IMG/VR virus record: IMGVR_UViG_3300048694_000135
Span: 1 to 30,181 of that record
DNA: 30,181 bases
Origin: a virus
Strand: one strand, 5' to 3'
The position numbers and the translations under genes were made by a program. Of the stretch, positions 13,516 to 30,146 are shown one piece after another. Under the pieces are notes generated by a model. That model worked only from the letters and a program-made list of their open reading frames with translations, did not search any database and was not told where the DNA came from. Each line of letters opens with the position of its first letter. Within the stretch, counting starts at the first letter, position 1.

Positions 13516-16500
13516 TTAAGCCTTAGCCTTTCGTTTGTTCTTTACCTTGATCAGCCCATTGTCGGCATTTGTTACTTTGCCGCCTTCTGCCATCTTTAAT
13601 TCAAGTTTTTTACGGCGCATATAGTCATAAACCTCTTGGATGTTGTTGGGATCAAACTCTCCCTTCATAAGTCCTTCTTGGTAGGTTTTGACTGCATCAA
13701 TGTTTCGTTGACCAATCTTTTCTGAAATAGCGTTTTTTCGCTTTTCCATTGCGCCGATTGCCATGTTCCTCAATGCTTCTTTTGATGCATTGGGGTATTC
13801 TGCTTTCATTTCCTTGTAAATGTTTTCAAATGTTTTTGGCATCAAAATTTCAACAGGCATATTTGGCATAGAGCCTGCATAGACGCCAGGGAAATCATGA
13901 CTATAAGTTGACGATTTTGATGGGCGCAACTTGCCAAACACATCCAATTCTGCCGCCACATTACCAACATAACCTTTAGGAACACCTTTTAGTTCTTCAG
14001 CCAACACAGAGCCAGTCAAATCTTGTATGTTGTACCCAAGCCGTTTTTGTTGCTCAACTAATGCCATACGATCCATGAATGCTTTACGCATATTCATGTC
14101 CGTAAAACCACTGATCTTTTTTTCTTTGTCTGATGGCAATCCGTTTTTCAATTGTTCAAAAAATTCTTTGGAACCAAACGGAGCCATGTCCTTAAATACG
14201 CCTTTTTTGCCTTCAAAGACCATGTTTCTCATGCTCTCATCAAGGGCTTTTTTTTCTGCCTTTTTAAGACCAGCCTGTTCCATGATGTCAATCATGATAT
14301 CTGTTGGAAAAGTAGAAGCGTATTCAGCTTTTGCACCCATGCGAACAGGAAAACCAAACACCCTTCCAGTTCCATTACCAAGCAACTGATTTTCTACAGA
14401 TGCTTCATTTATTCGATCCATTATTCTTTTTGCAATACCCTCATTTGAGGCTCCAGCAATTCTTTGTTTAATGTGTTGAAGATCACGCATATAGTCATCA
14501 CCGCCTTCTGTCAACACAGGCTTTTGCAGTGGAATATCTGATACTTCAGTTACCAACTTGTTTCGGCTGGTTGCGTCCCACGGAAAGATTTTGACTTGAG
14601 AGCCTTGCAAGTTCTCAATGTTCAAATCTTGTCGAGGAGCAAGACCACCTGTGTCAGTTACTTTGTATCGAATGCCGACATCAGGATCAGGCTTAAGAGG
14701 TGTATGCGGTTTATAGACACTCATGACTTGAGGGGTCAAAGCATTCAACACGCCTGACTTGCTTTCCCCAAACATAGCCTTATCAATCTCTTTTGCCGCC
14801 GCTTTGCCTAAAGCCTTTGCGCCTTTTAAGGCAGGCTTTGAGAGTGGAGCAAGAGCTTCAATAGCACCAGATGTATCTTCTGGAATTATCGGGACATTTG
14901 CCTTGTTAATGTTTGTGATGGGCTGACCATATGATTTGCGTTCAAGCGTCCGAGCCAACTCAGGAATTCGCAAAAAATTTGCAATTTCCTCTGTTACGGG
15001 GTTTTTGTAACCAAACTGTTCTTTGGATGCGTCTTCAATTGACTTTGCCAGATCAGCCGCCATCCCCCAACCTTCACTACGAGGAGTGGCTTTAACTTCA
15101 CCTCCCTTGTCAAACCCCCGATCCTCAACCTCCATCATCATGGCATCGGGGTTGTCAGTGATCTGGACAGGCTTAGGCTCTTCCATCTGGGTTGCGCCAA
15201 TACCGACAGGGGCGGCAACCGAATACATCGGAAAGCCCTTCTCGGTGAACTCCTGACGCATCTCAGGCGTAATCTTGAATGAGTGCAAATCAATGTAATT
15301 TGGTTCACCAGAACGAATCATGCCAAGACCAGCACGATCCTGAACCATCTTTTCTCCAGATTGGAGAGGCATGGTCTCAACCTGAACGCCATACTTCTTG
15401 CCAAGGCTGTTGAGGTAGTCGGGCAACATCTTGTCGTAAAAGCCCTTCATGCCTTCGCCGCCCACTTGCAGGTCAAGGCCAGTCAAAGTCTTTTTACCTT
15501 CACTGACGCTACCAGCAGGGAATTCTTTACCTTCTCCGCTGACAATCTTTTGAGCGACTTCTTTGCCAACCATGTTTTCCAACTGGCTTTCAGTCATGGT
15601 TGGCTCGTTTAAAGCAACTCGCCCATTTTTATCAACGGCAGTTAAAGAATATGTGCCATCAGCATTTTTGCCATAGTTGATTTCGTTGAGATGCCTGCTC
15701 AGGTCATAGCGTTCTGCTTGCACAACCCCGGGAGAGATGGCAACCCTGTCATATCCCTTTTCAGCGGCATCGGCAAGGATGCGGTTCATCATCAACTCAT
15801 GCCAGTTCTTTTTGAAGGGTGCGTCAGGAACGCCTTCTCTGGCTTTGAGTCGAGCCTGATGCAGAGACATTTGCTTTTCGCTCTCACCCAAGAAATCAGC
15901 CAACTTGCGGGGATCATCTGCAATTCTTTGAGCCATGTTTTGACCAAGTGTGGCGGCTTTTTCTTCAGCCACGCCCTCTTTGATCATTGTTTGTTTTATG
16001 TCTTCAGCAACTCTTTTTTGCAGATCATTTAGGTAGTCAACATACTCTTGCTCTGCATTTTTATTTGCATAACCCTTCTTGCGCCCTGCCTGATGCCAGT
16101 CAGATTGAATCTCCTCGACATGAAGCACTCTTTCGCCTTCAGGTGTTACACGATCAGATACACGAGCATGAGCAATCACATTCGGCTCATCATAGTGACT
16201 TGAACGAAATGCCTCTTGTTTTTCAGCGGCAAGAAGTTTGTCGTGCATATATTGATCATCTGCACCAGCGGCACGCCTCCAATCAAGGCGACCATACTTT
16301 TGTTTCATCTCATCTTGGAATTTACGCAAGTTTTCTTTTGCTTGGTGAAATGTATCAGGCAACTTCAACAAAATCTCTCGGTAGTTTTGACCGCCGGGAA
16401 GAATTAAGTCAGGTCTATCATACTTAGGTGGATTTGCTTGGCCTTGCCCTTCCAAGTCTAATTTTTCAGCACGAGTATTCAAAAACTCTGCTTCTCTGAA

Positions 16501-29151: not shown

Positions 29152-29454
29152 TCAAATTATCTTTAATGCTTCTTTTGCAAACTGGACAGCAATCTTGCTC
29201 ACGGGCAACCCTTCTTTTTCTTTGTGAAGGATTCGCCGTGCCCAATCTTTTGAGTCGCCAGTGAATGTGGGCTGTGGTTCATATCGGGGTGCTGACTTGC
29301 AATACTCGTCATAGCACTTCCAGCACCGTGCGCCATAAGTTGCCATGTCACTGTAGGAAGCCTCCATCAAACAACTGGTGCAGATGTAGGTCTTGAAATC
29401 TTGGCTCTCTTGTTTTTCTGCCTCGTATGATTTCTTTGCGTTGTAGTAACTCAT
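29152..29454 (-). CDS. Small zinc-ribbon protein
   Basis: A 100-residue protein with C25-x2-C28 and C44-x2-C47 (YICTSC.. RCWKCYDEYC), a four-cysteine zinc ribbon, after a charged N-terminus. The C-terminus (SKDWARRILHKEKEGLPVSKIAVQFAKEAL) is helical. The ATG overlaps the initiator gene's stop as ATGA. Zinc ribbons next to phage replication genes often assist loading or transcription; no specific role can be assigned. Confidence 0.72.
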   Translation of the reverse strand: MSYYNAKKSYEAEKQESQDFKTYICTSCLMEASYSDMATYGARCWKCYDEYCKSAPRYEPQPTFTGDSKDWARRILHKEKEGLPVSKIAVQFAKEALKII

Positions 29455-30146
29455 GATTGATCCTTGTGGTAAACGCCTTCAATGATTCGGGGGAACTTGC
29501 TTGGGTTGAACAGGAAGTCAATGTCTGCCTTCCAGTTTTTGGCTCGACCTGTCAGAAACTTGGACTGACCAACCATGTCGAAATACCAGTTAAAGAATTC
29601 CAAGCCTTTCTCCCGATCCAGTTTGTCAGTGGTCACCACCTCCCTCCATCGGGCTGATATGGCTCTCTTGCGGGAATCGTTGACAACAGTGACCCTTGGC
29701 AACATGGGCAACTTTTCGTTGTAAAGGCTGACTATTTCCTCAATCGGGCAGGGGGGGGTCAAAACTCGGTTTTGACGGGGTGCGTCAGCACCTACATCTG
29801 TCTCTTTCTCTTCATCTTTCTCTGTCTCTCCCTCTGTCTCTGGTGCATCATTTTGATATCCGCTTGATATCATGCTGATATCACTATGTTCCAGCCAATG
29901 AGACAACTTGGAAATAGATGCTTGCGTATCACTTTCAGACATTCTTAAACGAAATGCAAGTCTTTTTGTATCAGGAAGGTTTCCATCATTCTCACTGGCA
30001 ATGAGCCAGAGCATGACAAGCACTTTGGCTGACTTGGCATCCAATTCATGCCACTCTATGTCATCCAAGATGTCACGATAAAGTTTTATCCAAGGAGGGC
30101 GGCGATCCTTGAAATGCTGAAACTGTGACCAGTTTTTGATTTTCAT
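29451..30146 (-). CDS. Replication initiator / helicase-loader-like protein
   Basis: This 231-residue protein has two parts joined by an acidic linker. Residues 1-85 (IKNWSQFQHFKDRRPPWIKLYRDILDD, LDAKSAKVLVMLWLIASEN, then TKRLAFRLRMSE) are the winged-helix type seen in phage replisome organisers. Residues about 135-225 (PCPIEEIVSLYNEKLPMLPRV, RWREVVTTDKLDRE, FDMVGQSKFLTGRAK, PSKFPRIIEGVYH) resemble DnaT/DnaD-like loader domains of Burkholderiales phages. The ATG at 30146 follows the upstream stop by two bases; a GTG at 30158 would add four residues. The DNA for the linker has origin-like structure, as in lambda gene O. Confidence 0.75.
   Translation of the reverse strand: MKIKNWSQFQHFKDRRPPWIKLYRDILDDIEWHELDAKSAKVLVMLWLIASENDGNLPDTKRLAFRLRMSESDTQASISKLSHWLEHSDISMISSGYQNDAPETEGETEKDEEKETDVGADAPRQNRVLTPPCPIEEIVSLYNEKLPMLPRVTVVNDSRKRAISARWREVVTTDKLDREKGLEFFNWYFDMVGQSKFLTGRAKNWKADIDFLFNPSKFPRIIEGVYHKDQS
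29750..29882. other. Candidate replication origin inside initiator gene
   Basis: In order on the plus strand: a run of eight G (29751-29758), a hairpin GTCAAAAC-TCG-GTTTTGAC (29758-29776), a second hairpin GGTGC-GTCA-GCACC (29779-29792), a 44-nt tract with 40 pyrimidines (29797-29840), then three GATATC palindromes at 29855, 29866 and 29877, exactly 11 bp apart and so on one face of the helix. This lies in the codons of the disordered linker, the place where lambda O and several replisome-organiser genes hold their origin. Function is inferred from architecture. Confidence 0.55.

Follow-up and report, generated by a model that had tools for sequence, protein, structure and literature searches.

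An initiator gene at the end of the window

The window analysed here, a virus record of 30,181 bases, stops just upstream of a minus-strand gene (29451–30146; 231 amino acids plus stop codon) of the replication initiation/DnaD-like helicase-loader type. Its product comprises an N-terminal domain (residues 1–85; 29892–30146, minus strand) of the KNWxxFQH family, a linker, and a C-terminal domain (residues 129–231; 29454–29762, minus strand) of the O-like/helicase-loader type that is common to genes with other N-domains. In PHROG, the N-terminal half matches phrog_26426, which is the N-domain in all 67 family members scanned. The C-terminal half matches replication initiation families, both O-like and DnaD-like helicase-loader (phrog_5810, 1.2e-21; phrog_345, 9.5e-21; phrog_10469, 1e-19), and belongs by sequence to the O-like/helicase-loader group. 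A first-pass annotation, made from the sequence alone, had called the gene an initiator, and phrog_26426 together with the O-like and DnaD-like C-terminal families bears this out. Against Pfam and NCBIfam, the window protein matched no model at E 0.01; the sole Pfam match at E up to 1 was a weak one to DUF440, and sequence searches of solved structures gave no credible relative.

The AlphaFold model of the N-domain (residues 1–90) is confident, with a mean pLDDT of 89.9. Residues 90–127 have pLDDT under 50 and are probably disordered, with C-terminal helices following; the start and body of this linker are encoded by the repeats and tract described below. Over residues ~13–90, the N-domain model, predicted to be a winged helix, aligns with plasmid RepA (4pql, 4pt7, 5kbj) and with the N-domains of DnaD/DnaB at Z 5.4–5.8. 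The winged helices of LexA and SelB tie with RepA/DnaD on Z (5–6 overall), with fewer residues aligned, and Foldseek against the PDB returned no E below 0.2 for either model. Lambda O is absent among the fold matches listed, which does not speak against kinship. In some relatives the neighbouring genes are arranged as in lambda, with repressor/Cro-type regulators before the gene and a helicase, DnaC or primase after it.

Repeats, tract and hairpins in the linker sequence

Read along the coding strand, the linker sequence begins with three copies of the palindrome GATATC, at 29877–29882, 29866–29871 and 29855–29860, each 11 bp on from the last. The next 11-bp step (29844–29849, minus strand) holds a degenerate fourth position that may be read as a GAT half-site. 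Elsewhere in the window GATATC occurs as a single copy, at 14296. Exact 6-mer triples at equal spacing (8–25) number three in the window, two of which are the array, against a mean of 0.07 and a maximum of 1 in 60 dinucleotide shuffles. The three sites exactly 11 bp apart reported in the first pass are thus present, and lie beyond shuffle expectation.

The repeats are followed by a tract (29797–29841, minus strand) that is purine-rich on the coding strand, runs in a GAG-NNA codon rhythm and is a putative strand-opening element. It was originally described as a 44-nt pyrimidine tract. It is indeed the top purine/pyrimidine segment of the window (score 32.2 versus a maximum of 31.2 in 60 shuffles), but it is not pure: its 45 nt are 91% pyrimidine on the plus strand, with longest unbroken runs of 13, 11 and 9 nt. 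At a mean of 55% AT, against 53% for the gene, it does not qualify as an A+T-rich opening region.

Two perfect hairpins lie beyond the tract on the minus strand: hairpin 1 (29779–29792), with a 5-bp stem and the 4-nt loop tgac on the coding strand, and hairpin 2 (29758–29776), with an 8-bp stem and a 3-nt loop. A run of eight G (29751–29758; C8 on the coding strand) adjoins hairpin 2. The hairpins were located by script searches; a repeat search at default settings reported no inverted repeat. The window contains two 8-bp stems with 3–4-nt loops, the shuffle mean being 1.1, and its hairpins, taken alone, are within chance. Any weight they carry comes from the relatives only.

The 11-bp array recurs directly after the N-domain in relatives

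Relatives were gathered in two ways. In a DNA scan, viral contigs were searched for the exact pattern TGATATC-N4-TGATATC-N4-TGATATC, which returned at least 119 stretches. Among the matches listed, tblastn places the N-domain in 107 of these 119 motif loci, with the array immediately 3′ of the domain in nearly all 107; it is absent in 12 (L049, L054, L060, L064, L066, L082, L083, L091, L106, L112, L119 and L124), of which L066 looks like a truncated family member. A set chosen by the motif tells where the motif occurs, not how frequent it is in relatives. In a protein scan, relatives were therefore picked by N-domain alignments alone, leaving the linker out. The best 80 per viral scan were kept, so that the sample leans to closer relatives, and a genome scan contributed 24 loci. 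With 14 loci of an earlier relative set and the window added, an N-domain match was found in 223 of 227 sequences, which reduced to 162 non-redundant loci at 95%; 160 had the length needed for an array test (a triple 6-mer repeat at lag 11 with at least 14/18 agreement, directly after the N-domain).

In this best-match sample, 146 of the 160 loci carry a lag-11 array after the N-domain, compared with 1/160 in a control region. Other lags were found after the N-domain in 0–4 loci, and the control region reached 13 at lag 9. By eye, most of the 14 loci below the threshold have GCTAGC-type or GATATC sites at another spacing or with more mismatches. Individual departures are varied: the arrays of L348 and L351 are degraded, the spacing in L350 is 12 bp by eye, and the Rhizobiales loci L343–L346 have GCTAGC-type sites at mixed spacing though they are window-like by best match. 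L044 has reached six sites through a 33-bp duplication, and around seven GCTAGC-like sites can be counted by eye in L335. The tract is present in all of the 162 loci except L332, which has no array either, and L338; by eye, L140 shows neither array nor tract. Conservation and phasing of the sites in relatives, on which the case for an origin had been said to hinge, are thus found, and the tract is conserved as well.

Searches beyond these samples placed the module as a plasmid replicon in none of 72,556 plasmid records. Titles and abstract openings, a scope outside which most subscription journals and preprints fall, gave no description of an array of this kind.

The sites fall into two classes, both spaced at 11 bp: class A, to which the window belongs, is GATATC, and class B is GCTAGC, GCTTGC or GCTATC.

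Array and tract are conserved at the level of DNA

The linker peptide of class A is itself conserved (DIN.IS..YQ..ETETETE), and the 6-nt rhythm of the tract keeps codon register. The repeats could in principle be a feature of the protein, a conserved acidic low-complexity linker whose peptide the DNA repeats merely follow. This account fails on synonymous codons. When these were redrawn with the proteins unchanged, a mean of only 11.1 of the 160 loci retained an array, against 146 in reality. Across the 79 class-A loci, Ile93 is encoded by ATA in 77/77, Ser94 by TCA in 76/76, Tyr97 by TAT in 70/70, Ile90 by ATC in 66/68 and Glu103 by GAG in 76/76, while the corresponding usage in N-domains is 17% for ATA, 25% for TCA, 56% for TAT and 28% for GAG; as related sequences are not independent, such counts are not probabilities. 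Of the Ile codons, ATA has the lowest usage in class-A N-domains, yet it is fixed in the array. At the fourth step, the codon is GAT in all 74 of the 79 class-A loci that have Asp there.

The reading frame speaks to the same point. Since 11 is not a multiple of 3, one site is read in three frames, and the register itself varies between loci: in L028, L096 and L109 the array stands in a shifted register and the peptide words are rotated. Moreover, the linker is the part of the protein that is predicted to be disordered. As a full account, the protein-only explanation is ruled out by codon fixation and the synonymous redraws, and we regard a protein feature as the source of the repeats as very improbable.

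Codon choice in the tracts is similarly narrow, with GAG used 944 times versus 84 for GAA (N-domain GAG, 28% in class A and 46% in class B); ACA, used 519 times, is the only Thr codon among the 30 commonest codons. We note that a tract-level score was also attained in 27 of 297 control segments. Judged from these sequence comparisons, the conservation of array and tract acts at the DNA level. The first-pass view that the linker DNA is free to vary must consequently be abandoned, as the near-fixed codons and the redraws reveal strong constraint at synonymous positions.

Site class follows the N-domain

In the 160-locus best-match sample, window-like N-domains are accompanied by class-A sites in 79 loci and by class B in none (10 unclassified), and N-domains like those of L139/L014 by class B in 64 and class A in none (7 unclassified); the Rhizobiales loci L343–L346 are among the unclassified. 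Of the 143 classified loci, 142 share their site class with the nearest neighbour. The arrays of L163 and L179 are hybrid: a GCTAGC comes first, two GATATC-like sites follow at 11 bp, and the two loci were assigned to class A.

C-terminal parts are distributed differently. Single linkage sorts 209 of them into 24 groups, and each of the five largest groups includes more than one N-domain type. The C-terminal parts of L176 (class A) and L303 (class B) are 99% identical over 97 amino acids; the two genes have nearly the same DNA from the tract onwards but different N-domains and sites. L168 and L302 repeat this pattern, with identity beginning at the first AGAGACAG of the tract. The three swap pairs that were aligned base by base imply that N-domain and sites move as one cassette and that tract, hairpin and C-domain stay behind. 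We therefore find, from sequence comparison, that site class follows the N-domain clade and that chimeras swap N-domain and sites jointly.

Genes with class-B arrays have a further peculiarity. The coding sequence of the structured N-domain includes a GCTNGC pair at 11 bp in 60 of 72 loci, and class-B N-domains contain 131 GCTAGC and 1 GATATC in 17,580 nt. By best query, such a GCTNGC pair occurs in 8 of 90 class-A loci, a row that includes L343–L346. At the nucleotide positions of the class-B second array, a GATATC pair occurs in five class-A loci from the motif scan; the N-domain of the window gene contains no second array.

Covariation between array and domain holds whatever the function, and the N-domain model fits winged-helix repressors, LexA among them, no worse than it fits initiators. 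The N-domain might thus bind the array as an operator, for autoregulation or as a transcription road-block, with no origin involved. An operator would, however, have to sit deep in coding sequence with a tract attached and hairpins frequent nearby, in a gene whose C-terminal families are of helicase-loader type and whose parts follow the order of lambda ori. We consider this explanation unlikely, and favour an origin recognised by its own initiator.

Hairpins after the tract are favoured in relatives

After the tract, 67 of 155 loci show a perfect hairpin with a stem of at least 5 bp and a 4-nt loop, whereas the next 60 nt give 10 and the N-domain 2; T is mostly the first base of the loop. In 165 ordered pairs of loci whose downstream DNA is similar, double changes in the stem preserved pairing in 25/25 cells, one-sided stem changes in the same pairs left 21 G-T and 60 broken pairings, and a control gave 0 complementary among 10 double changes. 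Enrichment and compensation together indicate, at the sequence level, that the hairpin is favoured, not universal, and partly compensated. The two perfect hairpins initially singled out thus retain their perfection and their enrichment in relatives, but not a significance of their own, and they are the weakest part of the candidate origin.

The iterons may be DNA sites and the tract and hairpins nonetheless act in mRNA, in stability, translation or termination. The tract and hairpins of the relatives do lie downstream on the coding strand, they stay with the C-terminal part in swaps, and hairpins recur after another array class, in DUF1376-type genes (below). On the other side, Rfam at its gathering threshold found no RNA family in the window, and the lambda origin has a purine tract at the same place, with an inverted repeat after it by eye. 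A division of labour between DNA and mRNA remains a minority explanation, though of the alternatives weighed here it is the most serious.

Arrays in other genes and contexts

Related C-domains also occur behind N-domains that we take to be of DUF1376 type, a label that appears on fold-search rows as well. Here 43 of 46 loci have a 7-bp repeat in the corresponding position, and 4-nt-loop hairpins follow it in 28/44 versus 2/44. In loci L358–L437, the ACACAAG/ACCCATT array lies ~345–420 nt into the gene and encodes repetitive peptides, and the 4-nt-loop hairpins come after it. Such 7-bp arrays are, by sequence, probably another class of embedded origin. L049 combines a GATATC array and purine tract with yet another N-domain.

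Some arrays lie elsewhere. In L064, L082, L112 and L119, arrays of three GATATCAAAAT are apparently non-coding, with no initiator family nearby by tblastn, and in L054 and L124 (array near L054:540) a GATATC triple lies at the beginning of a different type of replication-protein-like ORF or shortly before it. In L083, a similar 11-bp TGATATCA array (~2855, minus strand) lies outside coding sequence, just upstream of a ParA-like gene, and is possibly a partition site of the same site type. It is conceivable on this ground that the array of the window is a partition centromere, or a packaging site, which happens to sit in an initiator gene. The array is, however, tied to the initiator N-domain in the motif loci and swaps with it, and none of the window ORFs that were read stood out as ParA-like; we give this account hardly any credence.

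Comparison with known origins

The locus resembles lambda ori in lying inside the initiator gene and in the order of its parts: iterons, a one-strand purine tract and an inverted repeat. In the lambda O gene, the iterons are followed by a 48-nt purine tract, the top purine segment of that gene, and by eye an inverted repeat comes next. The details differ. Lambda has four 18-bp iterons 20–24 bp apart and the window three to four hexamer sites at 11 bp; the lambda tract is A+T-rich (69% AT), in contrast to the 55% AT and GAG-NNA rhythm seen here. The N-domain of lambda O is phrog_277, which sets the window protein, with phrog_26426, outside the lambda O family, and the C-domain of the window protein matches the C-terminal part of the O-like phrog_345, whereas lambda O matches its N-terminal part. 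Lambdoid origins are described as lying in the middle of O and consisting of iterons and an AT-rich region (PMC7466680). By analogy and sequence, the embedded origin would follow the lambda plan, using an N-domain of another family.

A second parallel is offered by RepA_N plasmids of the pSK41 type. One account describes a winged-helix N-domain that binds four Rep boxes central in the rep gene, a dispensable linker encoded there, a C-domain that appears host-specific, and a natural chimera, pPR9, in which N-domain and origin were replaced together (PMC5703833). The N-domain folds align over residues 13–90 (4pql, 4pt7, 5kbj; Z 5.6–5.8), tied with LexA and SelB. Unlike these systems, the window is from a phage, not a plasmid, its sites and tract differ, and its protein matches no solved RepA initiator by sequence; the RepA_N family of Pfam was not matched by the window protein and is absent from the 14 families that 67 relatives yielded. 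Plasmid Rep proteins are also described as binding the repeats of the opening element on one strand (PMC4081077), which may serve by analogy as a model for the repeated tract of the window.

Phage replisome organizers (Phage_rep_org_N) are likewise DnaD-like phage initiators. The window protein matched neither PF09681 nor TIGR01714, and one of the 67 relatives matched them weakly (E 0.0069 and 0.00023).

GC skew, proposed in the first pass as a check, was computed for four complete genomes and gives a divided answer in which gene direction is a confounder throughout: the array lies within ~1.2 kb of an extremum in Xanthomonas phage PBR31 and MW202462, but ~7.6 kb or more off in MW202640 and 3.3 kb or more off in DC33. 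The last of these, Limnohabitans phage DC33 (L136/L354; PQ492659.1), is filed under Inoviridae despite a 39-kb genome whose genes include very large ones, one of ~9.4 kb.

A probable phage origin within the gene of its initiator

The protein families, the conserved phased sites, their constraint at the DNA level, the tracking of sites with N-domain and the lambda order of parts support the proposal that an initiator-bound origin occupies the linker of the initiator gene. We conclude that the segment very likely, at a probability of roughly 0.87, serves as a phage replication origin contained within the gene for its initiator. In such an origin, the N-terminal winged-helix domain would bind the palindromic sites, which 11-bp phasing sets on one helix face, and the bound N-domains would build a nucleoprotein complex. 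At the adjoining purine-rich tract the strands may open, or the initiator or replisome may contact one single strand, a role that would be that of the A+T-rich purine tract in lambda ori. The C-terminal domain, to judge from its families, would bring the helicase or its loader, and the hairpin or hairpins after the tract would serve as accessory structure.

More broadly, we lean towards the view that swappable origin-specificity cassettes are widespread among phages, each uniting a recognition domain with the DNA sites of that domain on one coding stretch. At least three site types (11-bp GATATC, 11-bp GCTAGC-like, and 7-bp ACACAAG/ACCCATT with DUF1376-type domains) would then precede interchangeable helicase-loader domains; repetitive peptides such as ETETETE and NNQEPITNNQEP would be by-products of origin DNA, and a second array would lie in the folded N-domain of most GCTAGC-class genes.

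The finding would provide a base-exact predicted origin for many uncultured phages and prophages that lack an origin annotation in the records examined, and embedded origin DNA would explain the repetitive linkers of phage initiators. The lambda plan of iterons, purine tract and inverted repeat within the initiator gene would recur where the N-domain belongs to another family and the tract is not A+T-rich. Because natural domain swaps exist in which the sites were swapped along, the co-evolution of origin and initiator becomes directly testable.
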